DNA of 64,000 nucleotides from Ischnura elegans (lineage: Eukaryota > Arthropoda > Insecta > Odonata > Coenagrionidae), in assembly GCF_921293095.1 (NCBI RefSeq), contig NC_060254.1, positions 61,488,069 through 61,552,068 on the forward strand, in the 5' to 3' direction. The translations under genes were made by a program, and so were the position numbers. Numbering within the stretch: position 1 is the stretch's first letter; every line of letters starts with the position of its first letter. Of this stretch, positions 34,125 to 52,567 are shown piece after piece. Below the pieces are notes generated by a model. It was given only the letters and a program-made list of their open reading frames with translations, did not search any database and was not told the DNA's origin.

Positions 34125-37100
34125 GACTGCATTTCCATGTGGTGGGGGAAGGAGTGGTGAAGTTAAGGAGCCAAAGGCAGGAAAGAGTATATGACAGAGA
34201 AAATTACATTGACTTTCGGATGAGACTGCTTGGAGAGCCAGGTATTGAGTCATTGAGTTAAGTCTAGAGTTGTAGATGATATTGTAATCATAATTTACAG
34301 ATTTAAATTCTAAAATTATATCCTCAATAACAATAATATTTTAATCAGCATTAGTAAAACTTGATAGTATTACATGCTTGCCTTTATGACTCATTTTTAA
34401 TATGATTTGGTGAGAGTATATATCCTAGGAAAGAGTATGTGACAAATTATGATTATATTTAGTAAGTGATAAATTATATACATTAAATATCATACAAGTC
34501 CATAAAATAGTCATTTTTTTAACTTGGAAAGGGAATTCTCTTAGCACAGAAAGTGAACAATACTCATCAATTATTCTATGTGGTAACCTTGAGTCAAGCT
34601 TCATAAGATTGGAATCCACCAGAGAATCATGATCCTGACCACAGAATCATGATCCTGACCACAGTCATGTAAATGGCAGTTAAACGGTTGTTATTTATGA
34701 CTATAATGCACATGCAGTCCTGAGGCATCACAGCAAACCCCTGCATCATTAAGCAATAGCCTCTTAAGCAGGAGCGTACCACTGTATTAATGAGCGTGAT
34801 CCTGAACATGATGCTAAATCATGGAAACCCATGTTGTGTGCCTGTATTGTCTGTATTTATTTTGAGGTACCAGAATTATATCCAATATAGCCTGAAGAAA
34901 TGACTTTCACCTACCACTACCCAGATAACACGGCATTTGTATTACATCAATAATGCACAAAACATACGTGCCCAAATACATATGTATAAGATGGAATACG
35001 ATCGTATTACATCGGTATATTTCACGTAGAAGTGGTTCAAAAGTCCCTATGGATGTATGTATTCGTGCGTATTACAAATTGGAAATCTGAATACCCATAC
35101 ATGAATTATACATATGTATACAAAGGAATACAATCGTATTACGTCTGTATATTTCACGTAAAAGTGGCTCAAAAGTCCCTCAGGATGTATGTATACATGC
35201 GTATTACAAATTGGAAATCTGAATATCCTTACATGTAATATACATATGTATCTGCAGGCCCTCATGCACGAATTATACATATTGATTTTCTGACCCACAT
35301 CCACTTAATATCAATATGGATCAAACGGATGAATAAATAAAAGGAAACCAGAACATACAGATAATAAAACATATATTCGAAGAGAAAAATAAAATAATAC
35401 ACACAAAGAACAAGTGTAGCCATGAATATTGCTAACAAGCATTAAGGGCCAGCAAACAGTAGGTGAAACTTAGTTTTAAAACATGGCACAAAGATAAATC
35501 AAGTACAAACAATGGCTTGAGTTGGAAAGTAGAAAAAAATATTAGCACGGAACAAGCGTTGTAACCCATTGCACCAGAAGAAACCTGGATTCAGGAAACC
35601 AACTCTGCACCATTAGCCACTTCCTGAAAGGAGAAAAGAAGAAGTCAAGTTTAAAAGTCATGCAAAAATATATCTTTTTGTAAGATCTGAATAGGAGCTC
35701 AAGGCCTTTCAATTTTATTTTTTTTCAATTCATATAGGCAGTCAGTATTCTGTGAAGTCTGTAATTTTAGTACTAATTCTGTATTCTGAATGCAAATGAA
35801 AGTTTGGCTTCTCTGCTAGATTCCAGACATAAGTTTTAAATTTTTTCATTTACCAATAATGCCAAGGTCCCAGCTGGTGCAGATTTGACCTTGTCCTTTG
35901 AGAAATCATATATTTTGGGGAAATGCTTTCATTTTACAAAATTAATAGCCTTTCTCTTGAGAAGAATGAGAAATATGAGAAAAGATCATATGAATACTTT
36001 TAAATATAAATTAACAAGGAAAACGTGAATCCATTGGTATGCTTATTTAGTACATGATACTAATATATTAGTACCATGATTAAGTAGCGGATGACTCACA
36101 CAGAAAAAATATAAACTTGTGATATCAAATTTTCAAACAAATAAATTTCATACATAATAGATAATTTCAGGCTTAACTTTAAGAAACCTCTCGATTATGG
36201 TTTAAAAAAATTTTTCCCTCAAAGCTTACCTCGGTATTAACAATTCCACCTGGTCTTCTGGCTTTGCGTCGTCGTTTTTTTTCGTAATCCATTCTCCTCT
36301 TGTCCAGGCCAAGCTATTTACATCGTCGCCTGCTGGGTATGCGCGAAAGAGCATGAAAAGAAATTTACAATTAATTAATTTGGCCCGTACGCACCTTTTT
36401 CTTACATATAATGACAAACTTTCGCATGAAAATTACGTATTTATCTTGTGTTAATAATAATGACGAAATGCACCTTGATTGACTGCATTTCAAGATGAAA
36501 GAAATATTACATTTTGCTTTAAGGGAACCGATATTACACGACCAATACTTCTTGTTCGTTAAATAATTAGAAGTAGAGGGCAAAACCGCTCGGAACCTCG
36601 AGGAATCTATTAGTGACAAGGCTACGCTGATAAGTCTAAGGTCAAAGATGTTATGACTAAAGCATAGGATAACTAGGAATGCAAGAACTACAATACAGTA
36701 GGTTGTGGTAATAAACAGCGATAAAACAACCTACACGTGAACGAAAACATTCCTTTAAACAATTTTTTCTGCTCTTAATTAAGAGAAGAAAAAATGTAAC
36801 TTCAGCCGCGAAGCACGGAATTACTATACAACGCATAATCTATTAATTTATACGTACAAGATTGACATTACTATGTTTTACCATATAACTTCAATGGACA
36901 CCAGTCTCCTCGATACATAACTCAACAAAAAAGGAAAACAATAGCCAAACATAAACAAAATAATTACCTCTATTGGCGCAATGTGGTCAACACATTGCGC
37001 CAATAGTTGTATCCAAATATACTCAAATAACATAATTAATGTAGTCTATGTATGCGTACAATATAATAAAAGATAAATCATACCTTACCTTAATTATCCA

Positions 37101-40100
37101 GTGACAGGAAACTGTTGGAGCTGGCTTGCACGAATCGCAATAACGTGCGGGATTGAAGCACATTTCCAGCAAAACATAGCTTCGGTTTGAGCACACCATC
37201 CACACGCACCGGTTACGAGGATTAAAAGACTATGTCAATTCTTCCAATACGTATAATAATACAAACAAATATAAAATTTACTATACATCAGTAACCGGAG
37301 TTCCTCCTACAGCACGTTCTTGACGTTCTCGTAGTCTCGAACGAAATGCCGAGCTAACTGTTAACGAGATTATCACTCCCACTCACTTTCCTAGCCTGTT
37401 GCGACAGAATTGAGAATTTATTTTTTTTGTTTAAACAGTTAATTTAAAATATTGTTTAAAAAATTAAACTTCGCTTTTATACTTTTGCGCTGTGCAAGAA
37501 CTATTTTTTGTATTTTTCATGTATTGTGAACCATTTTCCATGTGTATATTTCGCGGATGGACACTGAATTTTACATATGTAATACGTCTGTATTTCGCGT
37601 GCATTTACAAATTAACATAAATATGGTCGCCATACTACCCTTGCTCACATCGATCAGTATATGATTTATTTTTAAGCTTTCTGGGTATAAATTCGAATGG
37701 GTGAATGATCATTGAAATGAGGAAATCTGGCGTTTGCAGTGAACATATTATTTCTGCAAAAATGTTTCTGAACATTTCACTAGACGCCACGAAAATCCAC
37801 CTCTCAAAAATTACAGGAAATATACATAATGTATATTTTGTGTATTTTTGACCACATTTACATATGTATTTCCTCTGTATTCATACATATGTAAAAGTAG
37901 CAAGTGTTACACGATATTTACATTTGTATTTTTGACCACATTTACATAAGTATTCAAATTTCAAAAATACAAATGTATTTATCGTGTAACACGTACCACT
38001 TTTACATATGTATGAATAGAAAGGAAATACATCCAATAATACATATGTATTACACATGTTATACATAACAAAAATACATATGTATGTGACCCATGAAAAT
38101 ACAATATAAATACATTATGTATATCCAAATGTGTGCTGTTGGGGTACTATGTCTGCACACATAGCTAGAATATTTCTCTGCTGTTATTTTGCTCAATCTG
38201 CAGATAGAATCGATTTGGTAGATGCGATAAGATGCAGTAAGAGTTGTAATTTTGCAGGAGTCCCATCATTGGGTTTCAAATAAAATCTCAGAAAGCCTGT
38301 TTTTGCCTACCTTCCAAGGGAAGTTTGGACTCTTTCTCTGATTAGTTTTCATAATACGGGTAAATAAGTTTTATATTTCAGCTTTCATAATAAATGCAAA
38401 ATAAATGTTTCTAGACAGTCATTAGTGCTTACATCAATGCACACATGATAGTTAAATCACTTTTGAATATCTTTCCAAGTTTTAATTGTTTGGATCAAGA
38501 CCAAGGATAACTTTGATGAAGTTTAGACACCTTAACAGCCTAATGGTTTGCACACTAGTGCAATTGGCTACTTCTAACACCATGACAGCACTAGGAAACA
38601 GATTACCCCCTGTGTCATTCGAACGACACAAGAGATAATTCAGCAATTGGATTTAAAAAAGTTGAAATCTGGAAATTTGAATCAAGAAGCCATGCACTAT
38701 AATCAGCACAGCATAACTGACAAAGCAGTTTTGCAAAGAGCTGAACAACAGAAAATTGTTTCATAAATGGATTTGGGACATGTAACAAAGATAACTAGAT
38801 TACATGTGTTAGTAGTGACCAAGAAATAGAAAGCATCCCTCATGGAGAGCAGTAGTGAGCCCAGTGGATGCGCTGCCTTAGACTCCCTCCACAAGGATCA
38901 CACCAAAACCTGATAGCTCAAATGTGATCGCACAAATAGAACTAATGAAACAATGTTCAGCGCATAACTACTGATAGATAGTGCATTGTGAAATGACTAT
39001 AGCTTGACCTAAAGAGAGCACACCATGCTATTTTTATTGATAACCAAGAAATATTAGGTATTTCCCACGGAGCTCGGTGACACACTCACCGAAGAGTAAA
39101 AATATTTCAAAATAATCAAACGATGGCTTGATTCTAAATCCAGATTTAAATAAGCACAAAAAAATATATTCTAAATTTATATTGAGTTGAATTGTACTTC
39201 CTTTACCCTTCCATTTGTTAAACTGGATAATTGTTAACTTGAGGATTAAGCAGAAAAATTTTTATGACTTACAGGTCAGCCTCCATCCCTGCTATCACCA
39301 GGTATCCACAGTTTCCCATTCAAATTGGGTCTGCCATTAGGGCTACCATCTACTTTCCTTGGAAAGCACGGATGGGTACAATATTACTGCAAAGCTGCAC
39401 TGCGAGAGCCAAATGGACTCACTCACAAGAACCAGCAAGTCTTCATAGTTATGAATCCGATTGACCTCAACCTTGAACCTCCAATTTTGGCAGTGAGTAT
39501 TAGCACTATTTTTACATTATTGTATACATTAAAGGTGGTCTACAAATCACCCCAGCTTGTCCCCATCTTACATTTAAATTCCCTCTTTTTTTATTAAATT
39601 ACTCCAAAATAAGATCTGTAACATATTCATTCCACCCACAAACCTCATTCTCTTCCTTCCCCTACCCTAGTTTTTTTTAACATCATTCCTTCCAAAACTA
39701 AATACATATTCTCAGCTATCTCTTCCCCAGATAGCATGCTAAACTTGCAGCAAGCTTGCTGCAAGCTTGTCATGACAAAGTTGCAAGTTTGCAGCAAGCT
39801 TGTCATGACAAGCCTGCAAGCTTGCGGCAAGCTTGAATCAAACCTCCTAGTTACGCTTTTTCAAACTTGCAGCAAACTTGTCGCAACAAACCTGCGGCAA
39901 ACTTGTCGCATCAAACCTGCAGCAAACTTGTCGTAACAAACCTGCAGCAAACTTGTCATGACAAGCCTGCAAGCTTGCGGCAAGCTTGAATCAAACCTCC
40001 TAGTTACGCTTTTTCAAACTTGCAGCAAACTTGTCGCAACAAACCTGCGGCAAACTTGTCGCATCAAACCTGTAGCAAACTTGTCACATCACACCTGCTG

Positions 40101-43100
40101 AAAACGTGTAGTGTCACACCTGCTACATACTAGGAAAACTAGTTCCACACCTACCATTTCTGTAGTGACACTTGCTGAGGAAAAACTGCCTTAAAATTTC
40201 TGTTAAATAAAATGCTCTCCTAAATAATGATCAATTTACAACAACAAAATTGAAAATTTTCCACTCTATCAATTGTTAGTCATTTCACATGCACAGAATT
40301 TGGCTGCTAAATTTATTTAATAAAATGTGCAACAAATAAATGCCGAAGAGTTTATTTTTCTCATTAATTATGTACATGTTGAGGCAGTGGTGGACATACC
40401 ATTAAGATAGATATCTAGTCATCGATAGTTAATCATTATTAATGAAGTGAGTGAAGTACTTACAAACTGAATAGGAAACATCTAAGACAGAAACACTTTA
40501 AAAAATTTATGACCCCCTAGGCCACACATGGTAATAACTAAATTACAGAAATCTTCAAAAGGTAAAAACATATTGCTCGAATTTTATCAAAATATTCACA
40601 AGTATGCTGATTGGCTTTGAGGATTTAAAATTAAAACTTCATTCTTTTGAATTGTTGTTTAGTTATGGGAGTACAAGGTTGTGCATGGAACTTACATGGT
40701 TACATACTTATAGATCGTTACTGATGAACTTATTAAGCAAAATTATTGTCTTCATCAGCCTGATCCTCGGTCTGTTTATCCTGCCAATCCCTGAAGAGAA
40801 AATAGTAATTACTCCATGTGAAATGATATATCATGTATCATTTGCTTAAATCAGGGAGGTAAATTGAGAAATTATTAACTAATATTCCAAAAAGAATAAG
40901 CAATCAGATTCAATAAATAAGATGTCCATATTGTACCCCCACATTCTCATAATGGCGGTTAATGATTCAACTTCCATGGAACATTATAGTGTATACCTAT
41001 TGTAAGAGGGAATGTAAAATATGAAGAAAATGTCTGGGATGATCGAATTAATGTGGCAGGGAAATGAGAAGCGACTACTTACGTTCTTATTTTCCTGACT
41101 TTAGCCTGGTTGAGCCAATTACTCAGACACCCTTTCAGCACCACATCTGATGCATCAGGGTAGACCCTTCTGCATACACCTATGAAATTATAAAAAACAT
41201 ACTTAATGTTGTACGTTAAAAGTTAATTTCAACGATCAATTATTATAATAATCTTAGAATATCTTATTGGATGCACTCACGAAAAATAACAGGACACACT
41301 GAAGTGCTATAAAATGATTTCTTAACCGAATTTTTCTGAAGTTTGCCCGTAAGGGAATACAGCTCTGCTTCATAGTCATTCTAAGACGACGCAACATATT
41401 TTGTAGAAGTGTTCATTCATTTCTTCTACCAACTGCTACCAAACATTGCATCTAGAGATAAAAAAGATCAGATCAATTAAGAGTTAACAGCTTATACAAG
41501 AATAACAAAAATCATGTTTATAGCCAGAAGAAAAATTCACCAAAAAAATTAACACAATTGTCATGGTTAGTATGCACATGTAGTATGTGTGCACAAGTGC
41601 ATATGAAATCACAAAAATCCAATCATACCAAAACTGTTTAATATTTCATTGGACAATAATCCATACGCACTTCAAAATTATGTTGTACTTGAGTATTTTT
41701 ATAGCACTTTGAATTCCAAACACCGAGTGTCTGGCGGGCTCCAGATTTACATCGATTTTGAAACTTTCTTACAAAAACTTAATTTTTCTTTCATTAAAAA
41801 AATCATACATTGTTTGAATCAGGATGGCAGCACACAAATTATCATTATTCACTTACCAACTTTGGCTCAAATGAGGGATCTTCACTTATCCTACGGCAGA
41901 GTTTGATGAAAGCCTCATCTGCTGTCAATGGCAATCGGCTGAAATTCATCTCCTCCACAGCAGCATCCTTTTGCGTTGGGTCACATGCCAATAAAGCATC
42001 TACTTTCCTCTCCAAGTGGAAAAACCCAGGTGCCATTTCTCCCATCCACATGAGGAGCTGGCCATTCTGTAGTTTTAATTTACTGCAGCCTGTAAATATA
42101 AAATTGTTATAAATACAATAATACCAATTGATTTGCTTATATTATACTACCTTAGCACACTTGGTACTTAATCATCATAAATCCTGCCTAGATGCTTATC
42201 GAACAGGTGCTAAACATAGATTTTAATACACCACTAATTTTTCTGTAAACAAACACAGAGTAATTGATTACTTTACATCACAAAAATTTTAAGGATTGCA
42301 ATCTTATTGCACAGAAACAGCTTAGAAATGTGTTACTTATGCCCTTGAGTGCAACATGCCTGTTAAGAATGTACTGGCAGAATGTGCGATATATACATGG
42401 GCATTTGTAAAAAAAATGAACTAAAGCACAAATCAATGCCAAAATTATAATGATCAGAGAGAGTTCAACTGATGGCTATGTTTAGAACAGCTAATTAACT
42501 GCTATTATTCTTCGACATATTCCCAATAGTTATTCATTTTCAAGAAAAATCCTTCATAAACGAGTTTACTGAGGTTGAGACAAATACTTTAACGTCATAA
42601 AGAACTGCTAACAAAGTGGATTCTACTGCGAGAACCCTGATAGTTCAACTTAAACCGTCTGAATGGAGTCTTTTCACTATGCCAGCGAAAGCAAAGATCA
42701 TGCTAAATTGTAATTACACTGAGAATAAAATAATGAATAATCTTACATGGATAGTAATTGGCGGTTCATTAATCATACATAGTATCGAATAGAAAAAATT
42801 TTTCCATTTACTCACATTTACGCATGGTCAGCACAGCAGAGATGAGTAGATGCTGACAGAGGCAACTTCTTAAATCTCTTCGTGCCGCTAAAAGCCACTG
42901 TTTCCGAGAATTCAGTAATCTTCCAATCCCCTTTTTCCATTATTCACTACGAAACACGGATTATTTTCTTCTTCCATAGCATACTTCAACGTAAATTTGC
43001 TTGTAAAACAGGATTTTACTTCACAGCTAAATTCACAATCACAAATTCACAAGTCACAAGCACAAAATAACGACAACCGTTAGGTCACGTGGTACAAAAG

Positions 43101-46100
43101 ACTGCCGCCGGGCGTTTTGGCGCGAGTTCAAAATACGATTTTTAATCCAAAATATTAAAATAAGTTCGTAATATAATGGGAAAAGTTTTTTACTTGAGTT
43201 TTTTTATGAGTATGAAGATAATTATATCAAATAACATTATATTGTTATATTACTATAATTCTCATTAAGTACATATTATTAAAATCTTACAACCAAGCCA
43301 AATAGGCTGGAAAGAGGCATGAAAAATTCAACCTTGAGATGGCAAGGAAAAGTCAAGCTTCACGTAAGCTAACATGCTATGTGTGGGTAGTAGCAGGTTT
43401 GATATGGCAAGTTTGCTGCAAGTGTGATATGGCAAGTTTGCTGTAGGTTTGATATGGCAAGTTTGCTGCAGGTGTGATATGGCAAGTTAGCAGCAGGAAT
43501 GATATGACAAATCTGCTATGGGTGCAATATGGCATGTATTCTGCAGGTGTGATGTACAAGTCTACGGCTTGTATGTGTTCACATAACTTGTAAGCTTTAT
43601 TCAAGCTTGTACATAGCTTTCATGCCAGAATAGGTTTGTCACAGCAAGTTTGCTGCAAACTTGCCACGACAAGGCTTGTCGTGACAAGCCAAGGACAAGC
43701 CTATGACAAGTTTGCTGCAAGCTTGCATGCTATCTGGGTCTCACTTAATTCTCGCTCCATTCAAATCATCTAGGTATCTCATTTCTGCTTCTATTCCCAC
43801 ATTCTCCATTTTCGTCAGTAGCAAAACCACAAATTCCTATAAGTTACCATCAATAAAAAACAAAAGGTCCACACCATTCCTGAAGTTTGATGTGAAAATA
43901 GCCACAACTATTTTTAAGTAGATTTTTACATCACAATAAACACAGAATTTTTCCACAACTGAATCAATGAATGAATGCATTCTACTATGAGTAATTTTTA
44001 ATAGATAGTTGTCCATATATGATTGCATATAAATTTAATAAAAGCCTTTAATCCCTTTACATCCATAAAACTTCAGGAGATTGATCAGCCATTGGCAATT
44101 TTCTAGCACTCGCTGAACATTTATTCAGCAGCCCTCTACCACTAAAAAGTTTTGATTCATTTGAATCAAGTAAGTTGTTAAGTGTCACCTTACAGCTACC
44201 TTATCACGTTCGCCAATGCTTTTGGTTAAAAAGTTCAAGCTGAAATAAGACTGAGATATATAAGAAAACAGGGGCCTCTGTTGAAGTTGATGGTTGGTGG
44301 TTAACTTTGAGGAAGTTATACATGATAAAATAAAATCACTGCGTACTTTCCACACAATTTTTAAATTTTGCGACTGGTTTCGACGTGTTCTACATCATTT
44401 TCAAGCTAGACTGCCATCTCCAAACAAGCCAAAGCTCATTTTCCCAATTCCGCACCCACATCCCAATACATAGTATGTGACCACCACTCAAACCACCAAC
44501 CTTCACCTGTCCTCCTTTCCACATTACCTACTAACCCCTCCCCCACCTTGAAGTATAAAAATGAACTTTGGCTTGTTTGGAGATGGCAGTCTAGCTTGAA
44601 AATGACGTAGAACATGTCCAAACTAGTCACAAAATATTAAAATTGTGGGGAAATTACAAAGTGATTTTATTTTATTTTATCATGGGCATCTGTGCCTACC
44701 TCATCAAGTATGAAGGAAAGGCCTCAAGGTAAAAATGTCCTCCTCATTAGTCTTCATTAAAACATCCATTTCCTTTTTCTATTCCAGCAACCTTTTAGGT
44801 GTGAGATAGAACATAAGCTTGGCATGAGCTGTGTCTCTTCAGGACCAGTCGTTTGCCGGGTATCACTTGACCGTGGTGGTTATGTTCCTGGAGAGACTGT
44901 GGGTATTTCTGCCACTGTTCAAAATAAGAGCAGAGTCACCATTAAGTCAACAAAAGCTTCCCTAACTGAAGTAAGTATTCAATATACATATCTCATTAGA
45001 AAATATTTATCAAAATTTCTAATTTCATACTTTGATGAAATATTATAGGAAAATATATTGAATTTTTAAATCATCACATTTTTCTTAACATCAAAAGACT
45101 ATATTAAAATTCATATTACTCAATTATCTTGTTTTCCTAGAAGATTTTAAGAGCATAAGCACAAAACGTAAAAAACTCTACTGCAAGTTTTCCTAATACC
45201 AGTAGCGGATACAGAAAAAACTCAAGGGGCGCAAAAGATATTTTGAGCTACCATTACTTTTGTAGCAATTACAAATAATTAAGTCTCAAGCAAAGTTTAA
45301 GAAAGTCATAATACAAATATACATGACAATACTATCTTATGACATAAAAAATTTACAATAGGGTAGTTTCCTTCATCAAAGAAAACGAAATACATTGATT
45401 CCGATTCCTTACCCTCCATTAGTGTATTCATAATATACAAACTATTTGGTTTTAGAAATCCCAGTTTAGACGAATGGCAATGGTCAATTTTTAATTCATT
45501 TGAAAAAGGCCAGATTGGAGCCCATGCAATTCCACTCCACGTGACGTCACAGGAACCTAGTTACTATACGAGTAGATAGGAGTTTTACATCATCCGAGGT
45601 TACCAATGCATGCATGAGGCATAGAGCTCATGGAAACATCTCTCAATAATCACCCATTAAAATTACCTAAGTTCGGAAAGTTTCCTTCGTTTGATAGGGT
45701 ATTAATACCCCTTATTTAAGCCAAGCGCTACCTGCTAGCAGGGTACTCTGCTACCTGCTAGCAGCCTGCGTCGTAACAGCGCTCAAAGCCTCGCCCCAAG
45801 GTCACCTCACACGGCGACAGCTGGAACCAGAAATACGTCTCACGGACTTTTCCCAGCATTCCTACTTAGCCGTCGTGTTTTCCCGTGCTTGAAAATTTTC
45901 ACTTTTCGTTTAATTGCAAAATAGATATCGTCATTCAAAAATCTAAGAGCGTGAAATGCATACTGCAGGAATAATAATCTTTCGATTTAGGCAATAAAAA
46001 AATAATAGGAAACCACCCTATTGTTGTTGTTCAATGTCAGGCAATTCGGGCGGCCCCACAAGGGGGGGAGCGTGCCCCCTCAGCCCCCCATATGTATCTG

Positions 46101-49375: not shown

Positions 49376-51746
49376 CACTAGAACCGCTGACTTTTTCGTA
49401 TACCTAGAACCGCGGAGGGGGTCATTTTGACTCCTCGTCTTTTCTTGCCATATTTTTAGTATTCTGGGTTTCTTTTGGACACTGCACTATGTGAAATGAA
49501 TTATCTGAGATTTACAATGAAATTTGAATGATATATGGGCGGTATAAGCGCTAGATAGGCTACATGCCTTGCACAAATAATGCGTTTTTCACATTTTTAC
49601 TGTATGTTCGGCTGAGGATGGGGGAAAAATGTAAACTTTTTTTAAGAAAAAGAAACCCTTTTATTGGTGCAGAGAAGCATACAGTAATGAAGAATGTAGA
49701 ATAAATTCGTTTCGTTGGGTAAAAAGAGAAAAACTGAACAAGGTTAGTGTAGAAAAGGTAAGTAAACCACATTGATTACTTTGGTTTTTTTGTACAATTT
49801 TCACTTTGCGAAACTAATTTCTATCTTTTGGCTTAGAGGATAGACATATTGCTTGCATTGTCGAAGTACATGGACCGCAGACAACTTTCTTACATTCCAT
49901 ACAGAGATAGGATGACTTGTTCTTGCTTTTCGCAGAGCATACTTCAAGTAACTGACATTTGCGTCGATTCTCCAGCTTCGAAGTTTCAGGTCCAAATCCA
50001 AATTTGCTTGTAAATTGGGTCTAGCCCTTACAATTTTATTTGTCACCGAAAGCTCCTCTGACAGCTTTCTGAGCAACTCGTGACGTGAAATCTTTTCCCC
50101 CGTGCATTCTGAGAAGAGAATGTAAGCATTGATAGCAGCAATATCCAATACGTTGTAAAAAAAAACATGTACTGGCCAGCGTCGCGTGGCAGCACGAACA
50201 GAGTAAAGCCTAGCCATCAACAGAGTCAACACCAGATTTATTTTTATTATAAACCTCAATAGTTTCAGGAAGTCTTTTCTCAGTTTCCCTCACTGTGATA
50301 TTGGGATACATAGTGCTTAGTACAATCACATTTTTCTCCCTTTTACCCTGATAAACTGTGAGAGGCGTCATTGTTTTTCAAAAATACTGTGGACTACCGA
50401 TGTCCTTTGGCTGCTTTTACCTCATGAGGTATTTCCCTTCTCTTCCTATTTACAGTACCCACTAAGCTTGTTTGTTGGGCTTTTAGAGCCCTTGCAAATT
50501 TCACAGTAGTAAAATAATTATCAGTAGTGATATTTCTTCCTTTTTTCATGCATGATTCAGACAACTTCAGAACGACATGCTCACCTATGTTTACATCTGG
50601 TGCCCGCTCGTCTGATTTATCTAGGTAAGGCATGGCATTACACATAAATTTAGTTTTAGCATCGCAGAGCATCCAGAATTTTATGCCGAATTAGTCAGGC
50701 TTGTTGGGCATATATTGTGTAAAAGGGCATCTTGCCTTTGACGGAAAAAGCTGCTCGTCAACCATGAGTTCAGGCCCTGGTTTGTACAAAGAGTTGCAGT
50801 TCATGATAAAAGAGTCCCAAAGGTGAGAGCAAAGTGCAAATTTGTCAGTATGCAGCCGTTGACTTCTCTCCGTTCTCAAATCAAACCTCAAGTACCGCAA
50901 TACATATTTCGCGGAAACGATCGCGACTCATTGTTTGTGAGAAGAAGGGTGGGTCCCATTCTTTGGACCACAAAAAGTCAAGCTCCAAGTTCCTTGCTCC
51001 GTACCAACCACGTGCATACAATACTGCAATGAAAGCTTCCAGTTCATCCATAGATACCGGCCAGTCCTTGTCCCCACTTTCTTCACGACGTGCTCGTTCT
51101 GTGAAAACCAATACGAGGCGCACTCCCCCTCACCCCCTCGACTCATCCGACTTCTCGCTTCACGCAATATAGCACTGCCGCGCAAACTGATGAATTCGGG
51201 TGAATTGCGAAGTAATACATTGTTATTCATGTAATAGAGATGGCAACTACAATGACGCCACACTGGTAGGGGAGACACAGTAGAGGAAGGAAGGAGCCTT
51301 GAGTGGGGGTAGCCGAGGAAAGGGGTGTCCCCGGAAATTTTCGCGTAGGTCCATTTCTACGCGGCTCGACTCTCACATTCTTTCAGGCGTCCGCTGGGCG
51401 GGATGCCTTTATCTGCGGCCTAATAAGAAACGACAGAGGTGATCCATGCCATTCACACACATTCGACCTTCGAAAATTACGCTTGCGGTGAATTTCTTCT
51501 GCGAAAATATGAAGTTCGGGATCGATCACAGAGCAGGGGTCAAAATGACCCCTACCGCGGTTCTAGGTATATTGTTGTCTAGTGTTCACAAAAATAGTCC
51601 TATAGCGTCGGAATTTCGCACGAATACGCCTTTTTACAATTAATTAAAAGTCAGAAAATATCAGGTTTTTGAAAAAAAAATTAAGTGTGAAATATACATG
51701 TTGAAAATCATAAGGGGTCAATTTGACCCCCTCCGCGGTTCTAGTG
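49376..51746. mobile_element. piggyBac-like DNA transposon, degenerate
   Basis: The termini are CACTAGAACCGC (left) and its reverse complement (right), flanked by GTAA on the left and TTAA on the right. This fits the TTAA target of piggyBac with one base decayed. A second, internal copy of the terminal motif, CTAGAACCGCGG followed by GGGTCATTTTGACTCC, lies at 49404-49438, with an inverted counterpart at 51541-51571. The palindromic GGGTCAATTTGACCC stretch also sits next to the right end. The element is 2.37 kb, about the usual size for the family, and carries a broken transposase on the minus strand. Confidence 0.93.
49814..51123 (-). pseudogene. piggyBac transposase, frameshifted and interrupted
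   Basis: Conserved blocks appear in order on the minus strand. FIAVLYARGWYG (about 51020) is the DUF4371/DDE_Tnp_1_7-type N-terminal helix region. MVDEQLFPSKARCPF with QYMPNKPD (about 50760-50690) holds the first catalytic Asp. TTDNYFTTVKFARAL (about 50500) holds the second. NKSGVDSVD followed by ARLYSVRAATRRWP (about 50220-50170) holds the third. The Cys-rich tail, CMECKKVVCGPC, is at about 49900-49850. Lesions: a frameshift near 50895; an in-frame TAA at 50691-50693 between PNKPD and FGIKFW; a frame change between 50394 and 50360; a frame change near 50220; and another before the Cys-rich tail. The N terminus is not recoverable in one frame. All three catalytic aspartates survive in the fragments, but the gene cannot make an intact enzyme. 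Confidence 0.92.
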
Positions 51747-52088: not shown

Positions 52089-52567
52089 GGTGAAGCTGAA
52101 CCTACCACATTCCAGTTGAATTACACAACGTTATGTGACAAAAAATTTTCTCTTCCTCGCCCAAACAAATTTTAGGGTCGCTTACCAGAGATATTAATCT
52201 TACATAGTCATCAAGGTGGAGGAAATTTCAACTGCATTTTTCGCCATGGTGAAGCTGAACCTACTACATTCCAGTTGACTTACACAATGTTATGTGACAA
52301 AAAATTTTCTCTTCCTCTGCCCAAACAAATTTTAGGGTCGCTTACCAGAGATATTAATCTCGCTTAGTCATCAAGGTGGAGGAAATTTCAACTGCATTTT
52401 TCGCCATGGTGAAGCTGAACCTACTACATTCCAGTTGACTTACACAATGTTGTGTGACAAAAAATTTTCTCTTCCTCTGCCCAAACAAATTTTAGGGTCG
52501 CTTACCAGAGATATTAATCTCGCTTAGTCATCAAGGTGGAGGAAGTTTCAACTGCATTTTTCGCCAT
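52089..52567. repeat. Three tandem copies of a ~160-bp unit
   Basis: GGTGAAGCTGAACCTAC starts at 52089, 52248 and 52408. Each copy runs to AACTGCATTTTTCGCCAT. Copies 2 and 3 are nearly identical and copy 1 is more diverged. This is a small satellite-like array with no coding capacity. Confidence 0.93.

Follow-up and report, generated by a model that had tools for sequence, protein, structure and literature searches.

Two CCC-ended transposons in consecutive introns of an arrestin gene of Ischnura elegans: probable non-autonomous elements of the animal TRC group

TRC elements, a group within the CACTA superfamily of DNA transposons, have been described from Schistosoma, Tribolium and Aedes, and carry CCC-type inverted repeats flanked by 2-bp duplications (PMC1636069). 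Here we compare with them two elements of Ischnura elegans, element 1 and element 2, each of which occupies most of one of two consecutive introns of an arrestin gene. Both lie in a stretch of 64,000 nucleotides (hereafter the window), C9:61488069-61552068, where C denotes a contig; the genome searched comprises 1.72 Gb in 110 contigs, and loci from which sequence was read are numbered with L. A first-pass annotation, made from the sequence of the window alone, had proposed that the two elements form one family of DNA transposons that carries host-like genes or uses these genes for its own mobility.

The window elements share with the animal TRC elements (SmTRC1 and those of Tribolium and Aedes) the CCC-type terminal inverted repeats, the 2-bp duplication and the occurrence of shortened copies, and SmTRC1 was itself found filling an intron, as they do. 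They are unlike the published elements, as far as these are set out in the part of the account used here, in that neither contains a transposase and in that a complete element on contig C3, described below, bears a gene with a DUF4806 domain (PMC1636069). The Tribolium repeat is CCCTAGTAGCACCGAATATTTGTAAAA (start CCCTAGTAGCACC..; in Aedes CCCAGTCAAC; PMC1636069); its first 12 bases agree at 8/12 with element 2 and the left end of element 1, and at 9/12 with both the right end of element 1 and the C3 element.

Spongebob (EnSpm-4N1_HM), also called TRC, is similar in its start (CCCAGCCAAC; CCCAGCC..) and its 2-bp duplication and is reported as short non-autonomous forms in insects and a 5.8-kb form in Hydra; however, its sequence differs, and the portion of its description on which we draw does not mention a DUF4806 gene (PMC4298943). 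Maize En/Spm and soybean Tgmt* likewise combine a transposase with a second protein, possess subterminal arrays and have deletion derivatives that are movable in trans; in maize, both TNPD and TNPA, which recognises the subterminal repeats, are required. Unlike the elements considered here these have CACTA termini, and the duplication of Tgmt* is of 3 bp (PMC2613891): the ends in the window are CCCAGATA and not the plant-type 5′-CACTA.

We place both window elements in the animal TRC group, within the CACTA (En/Spm) superfamily, as non-autonomous elements moved by the transposase of complete ones, and assign this reading a probability of roughly 0.9. They are so placed because their CCC ends and 2-bp duplications match those of the published animal TRC elements, and because the transposase of the C3 element has the residue pattern of the CACTA/Mirage/Chapaev/Transib (CMCT) clade.

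Two mobile families and their limits

The limits, target site duplications (TSDs) and subterminal arrays of the two elements are as follows; these features carry no strand.

34920-38144: element 1, probable non-autonomous TRC/CACTA-type transposon, 3225 bp, left end CCCAGATAACAC, right end (reverse complement) CCCCAACAGCAC, TSD TA
34918-34919: left copy of the element 1 TSD (TA), from comparison of copies
38145-38146: right copy of the element 1 TSD (TA), from comparison of copies
34976-35251: left subterminal array of element 1, a 132-bp unit repeated 2.1 times, with TACATATGTAT / GTATTACAAATTG words
37820-38124: right subterminal array of element 1, palindromic TACATATGTAT words with internal inverted arms
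39726-43738: element 2, probable non-autonomous TRC/CACTA-type transposon, 4013 bp, terminal inverted repeat CCCAGATAGCATGC, TSD TC
39724-39725: left copy of the element 2 TSD (TC), from comparison of copies
43739-43740: right copy of the element 2 TSD (TC), from comparison of copies
39740-40123: left subterminal array of element 2, 25-bp units like CAAACCTGCAGCAAACTTGTCGCAA with a higher period of 153 bp
43393-43720: right subterminal array of element 2, in inverted orientation to the left array

Taken alone, the word CCCAGATA is found at chance level in the window (3 matches, a count equalled or exceeded in 21 of 100 shuffles, against 1.5 expected). The element ends are proven not by the frequency of this word but by the fact that copies in the genome share them. 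Element 2 has 221 candidate places in the genome, of which 40 were scored. Thirteen of the 20 copies fetched were readable at both ends, and all begin CCCAGATAGCAT and end ATGCTATCTGGG; the remaining seven (L019, L021-L024, L026, L028), in which the blast pieces reached no right end within the fetched sequence, were omitted. Element 1 has 346 candidate places, and the 40 that were scored all stand at 99-100% over 401 bp. Its left end was read at 20 places and its right end, which is set by 10 other copies, at 10 of the 19 copies outside the window, giving 11 rows with the window. The genome copies bear out both elements and their CCCAGATA-type ends, the limits of element 2 being exactly those annotated. 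In both families ends and arrays recur jointly at other places in the genome, so that the check by which the annotation would have been refuted came out in its favour.

The flanking dinucleotides, which would match by chance in about 1/16 of cases, agree in 13 of the 14 rows of element 2, window included (TC, AT, AT, GT, TA, TA, TA, CT, AG, TT, GA, TA, TA), or at 12 of 13 independent sites, the flanks of L025 and L027 being common to both. For element 1 they agree in 10 of 11 rows (TA, TA, TC, CA, TG, AA, TT, TT, AG, AT). L025 (contig C14) and L027 (contig C16) present an identical insertion of element 2 with identical flanks on two contigs: either a duplicated segment or a duplication in the assembly.

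The copies are also very similar to one another. Among the copies of element 2 that were read, the nearest, L009 (contig C4), departs from the window at 0.1% of aligned sites. Ten of the 13 copies with both ends readable were aligned, L015, L025 and L027 being omitted, and these differ by 0.1-2.6%. Over the first 1901 bp of element 1 the nearest read copy, L030 on contig C8, differs by 0.16% and 13 others by 1.6-3.2%; five of the 19 copies (L040, L041, L046-L048) were excluded, their match having stopped early, and the low variability of the first 400 bp was not used because identity over those bases had served to select the copies.

Both elements have subterminal arrays, which the annotation held to be mutually inverted. 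This is so in element 2, whose two arrays share 37 inverted 11-mers and 4 direct ones, against a mean of 0.18 in shuffles. The 11-mers shared in element 1 are palindromic, with 10 inverted and 10 direct, and orientation is unreadable in that way. Beyond the type of end, the length of the duplication and the long subterminal arrays, elements 1 and 2 have no interior in common (best E 0.46 by blastn and 0.025 by tblastx). They are thus of one kind, as had been proposed, but not a single family: they are two recently mobile families, placed in one superfamily.

Several copies are themselves interrupted. Two CCC..GGG elements nested in copies of element 2 (L024 and L028) have 2-bp TSDs (TT and AT), the empty site in each case being known from element 2; these (L024:2034-4041, L028:2519-4500) represent two further CCC..GGG families (CCCATACAAA.., CCCTGTCGAT..). 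A 2.7-kb insertion in a third copy (L026:558-3241) has AGGGAA..TTCCCT ends and an AT duplication and belongs to a different family. A 0.53-kb insertion in L015 contains an open frame (L015:2702-3157) that by eye is similar to a GIY-YIG endonuclease of a Penelope-like element, with no Pfam match at E<=0.001. Inspection by eye of the insertions within the longer element 2 copies revealed no transposase. For a nested element 1 in L044 the right side was not found, the end word searched for being absent from L079.

On contig C8 a copy of element 1 (C8:114469341; L030, L049) ends 84 bp before a copy of element 2 (C8:114472649; L019), in the order and orientation seen in the window; this copy of element 1 has no matching 2-bp duplication. 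The pairing of the two families there may go beyond chance, or may reflect a stretch rich in repeats.

A complete relative and its transposase

Neither element contains a transposase of its own by open reading frame (ORF) list, by Pfam or by tblastn (best E 0.44 in element 1; no match at E<=1 in element 2), as the annotation had noted, and the window copies do not qualify as autonomous. The genome was searched with an animal CACTA-like transposase sequence, whose C-terminal part matches DUF4218 (E 3.8e-5, 24 bits; cut-off 27). There were 669 candidate places; the 150 that were scored all have E 4.3e-37 or better, and many are open frames of about 700 residues.

One of these transposase copies, at C3:79111517, lies within a complete element with CCCAGATAGCAC ends that spans 8644 bp (C3:79107100-79115743), starts with CCCAGATAGCACAAGATTTGTAATAC at C3:79107100, ends with GTGCTATCTGGG at 79115743 and is flanked by AA on both sides. 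All three copies read of this type have a TSD: AA/AA on C3, and TT/TT and AA/AA on C9 and C6, where the ends are the same and a comparison of the two copies over 1.8 kb gives 99.6% identity. The minus strand of the C3 element holds an intact transposase ORF of 716 residues and, directly downstream, a multi-exon DUF4806 gene, the C-terminal part of which scores 25.2 bits (cut-off 25). A second locus, L070 on C9, encodes a transposase of 727 residues, with an exon downstream on the same strand that by eye resembles the first exon of the C3 DUF4806 gene. The two transposases are 40% identical; the motifs DGLP, CDAPA, CxKC, HxxxH and FEN align in both, and both contain the D-D-C(2)C-H(3)H-E pattern, which has been reported for the CMCT clade (PMC12730594). 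A PDB search with the C3 transposase and an NCBIfam search with both proteins returned nothing useful.

The C3 element resembles the window elements at its ends. Over the first 12 bases the C3 ends agree at 11/12 with the left end of element 1 and with the left and right ends of element 2, and agreement among the left end of element 1, element 2 and the complete element is 10-12/12 throughout. Over 26 bases the left end of element 1 matches that of C3 at 21 positions, a value reached by none of the 127,948 other 26-mers of the window. The left subterminal array of C3 consists of GTATTACA and TACAAATTGTATT words that by eye are like those of element 1; the blast matches are short (best E 0.004). 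The relation between C3 and the window elements rests on the agreement of ends, TSD, arrays and the type of gene, not on the interior, and on these comparisons of sequence we take the link to be one of shared type and not of direct descent.

A complete element 1 appeared to be present on C9 near the L070 transposase and was rejected, since the copy in question stops, with the right end usual for element 1, about 4 kb short of the transposase locus. A further sequence (L022:1745-3054) separates the complete C3 element from an interrupted copy of element 2; its outer end (..GCTTGTAGGG), adjoining the TT of element 2, resembles the end of another CCC-type element; the remainder of this element 2 copy was not found as far as C3:79103600.

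A broken gene in element 2, and other explanations

The first-pass annotation placed a spliced gene on the minus strand of each element:

40760-43000, minus strand: broken gene of element 2, multi-exon and probably of DUF4806 type; main exon at 41857-42089, a stop in exon 3; exon limits by eye
35560-37240, minus strand: claimed spliced gene of element 1, not accepted; three short possible exons of no recognisable family, length varying among copies

The gene of element 2 is real but broken. The window copy and 9 of the 10 others aligned have an in-frame stop in exon 3, and the tenth lacked the anchor word; since the stop is common to the window and these nine, the gene was broken before the copies spread. 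Read across its lesions (as X) it matches DUF4806 at E 0.069 and 13.9 bits (gathering cut-off 25). In L069 on contig C7, a longer relative measuring 7077 bp between CCCAGATA ends, the frame is open in the damaged exon and the match stands at E 4.7e-5 and 24.1 bits (Pfam gathering cut-off 25). In tblastn, the C3 proteins and the L070 transposase found nothing better than E 0.17 in the window elements or L069, and the C3 and L070 sequences no better transposase match than this in L069. A genome search with the PF16064 profile gave no match, and neither did its control. The companion gene of the complete transposons most likely has a broken relative in the antisense spliced gene of element 2. Because it is of DUF4806 type and broken, the window copies need a transposase from elsewhere. 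About the enclosed gene of element 2 the annotation was right in spirit, in that complete relatives carry a gene of this type beside the transposase, and wrong in taking it for host-like cargo.

A gene in element 1 is not supported: there are only short ORFs without a Pfam match, and the supposed middle exon is one base shorter than in the window in 11 of 15 aligned rows. The short exons may be the remains of a gene.

A locus on contig C13 (L071, L073), where transposase remains adjoin an element-2-like DUF4806 gene, first looked like direct proof of the association and was rejected. We read it as a nested composite: a repeat unit shared with C8 (L084) starts where the transposase homology ends, and there is no right end in the 2.7 kb upstream. 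In this composite repeat (L071:1681-7176, L084:1696-4001) TATAC-rich arrays flank the DUF4806 gene, both sides having been read in L071 only; 18 places have the same exon score, two of which were read, and these suggest a family that has spread.

The placement of both elements in the TRC group has to be set against three other explanations. The first is that a different transposase, one not found here, moves both elements, and that their likeness to C3 is a convergence of short ends. Such a view would accommodate the absence of an interior in common with the C3 element and the presence of further CCC-ended families in the genome. It has to contend, however, with the match over 26 bases between C3 and the left end of element 1 (21/26), with a TSD of equal length and subterminal arrays in all three elements, and with the presence in element 2 of its own DUF4806-type gene, similarly oriented; we think it improbable.

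More improbable still is a Pack-type DNA transposon, one that has captured host genes and spreads them, in favour of which stands the spliced gene within element 2 with no transposase beside it. This gene is not of host-like character, as the annotation had supposed, but of the type that directly adjoins the transposase in complete transposons with the same type of end; L070 repeats the arrangement with a similar-looking exon downstream of its transposase on the same strand, and the gene is broken both in the window and in the nine other copies readable at the lesion. Elements of the ISL2EU type (PHIS superfamily), which also occur in animals and also make 2-bp duplications, we reject as very improbable, since they are described as having an AT duplication, usually a GG start, and a THAP transposase with a YqaJ protein (PMC4482050), whereas the duplications here include TC, GT, TA, CT, AG, GA, CA, TG, AA and TT besides AT, the ends are CCC, and the transposase of the complete element has the CMCT pattern.

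Some observations nevertheless weigh against placing the window elements with TRC. One row in each family is without a matching 2-bp duplication (L030 of element 1, CG vs TC; L018 of element 2, AT vs AA). The right end of element 1 fits the other ends less well, at 8-9/12 (9 with C3). Comparison of elements 1 and 2 with the C3 interior by blastn and tblastx gave nothing beyond one weak 40-base match, in an array of element 1, and the closest complete relative of either element was not found. The gene of element 2 is linked to that of C3 solely via the Pfam DUF4806 profile, tblastn of the C3 DUF4806 protein against element 2 giving no match at E<=1, and the adjacency of transposase and DUF4806 gene on C13 is that of a nested composite. 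As to the transposases, Transposase_21, reported for SmTRC1, has no match at E<=1 in the L070 or C3 proteins, DUF4218 is matched by the two only below its cut-off (16.2 and 13.1 bits; cut-off 27), and the best Pfam match of the C3 protein is DUF1258 (E 1.8e-4, 21.5 bits; cut-off 33.1). We count these Pfam results against a textbook placement but not against membership of the clade.

The host gene and a possible role for DUF4806

The exons of the host gene visible around the elements, with limits set by eye (in the first from splice signals), are:

34125-34241, plus strand: arrestin exon before element 1
39275-39492, plus strand: arrestin exon between the elements
44788-44970, plus strand: arrestin exon after element 2

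Joined, the three encode an arrestin-domain protein (Pfam Arrestin_N, E 6.2e-18; Arrestin_C, E 3e-9). The annotation found it striking that one gene had received two insertions in the same orientation. The insertions are there, but they are weak evidence of anything further, since the same orientation has a chance of 1/2 and both families are numerous. Elsewhere in the window, 49801-50289 on the minus strand is an open frame of 162 residues that by eye resembles the C-terminal part of a piggyBac-type transposase, with no Pfam match at E<=0.001, and 52089-52567 is a tandem repeat with three copies of a 160-bp unit at 97% matches.

If elements 1 and 2 are non-autonomous TRC elements, transposase from complete elements elsewhere in the genome would recognise the CCC-type ends of both and move them in trans by cut-and-paste, leaving the 2-bp target duplication. 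Element 2 would descend from a complete relative that lost its transposase part. As TNPA does in maize, the DUF4806 protein may bind the subterminal arrays, and a TNPA-like partner is a plausible description of the DUF4806 companion. The fuller proposal, that DUF4806 is the second, array-binding protein of animal TRC/CACTA elements and the counterpart of TNPA, the arrays of elements 1 and 2 being bound by different DUF4806 proteins, we put forward tentatively and would not favour over its negation. The accessory-protein idea fits the genome of Hydra viridissima, where DUF4806 and DUF4218 both appear in the tables of enriched domains, although they are not so interpreted in the part of that report used here (PMC7642931). 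In the literature we found that names the domain, DUF4806 does not appear in titles or abstracts; an earlier note in Repbase Reports is possible.

Taken together, what had been a puzzling pair of seemingly gene-carrying elements resolves into two families of a known transposon group, both active very recently, and the same genome has yielded a complete element of 8.6 kb whose transposase ORF is intact. The two window elements are ordinary non-autonomous TRC elements, if rightly placed; the DUF4806 companion is the less ordinary part. For this domain of unknown function the arrangement of the genes suggests a role as a transposon accessory protein, and if different DUF4806 proteins do bind the arrays of elements 1 and 2, the divergence of the arrays from family to family, beside ends that remain similar, would be accounted for.

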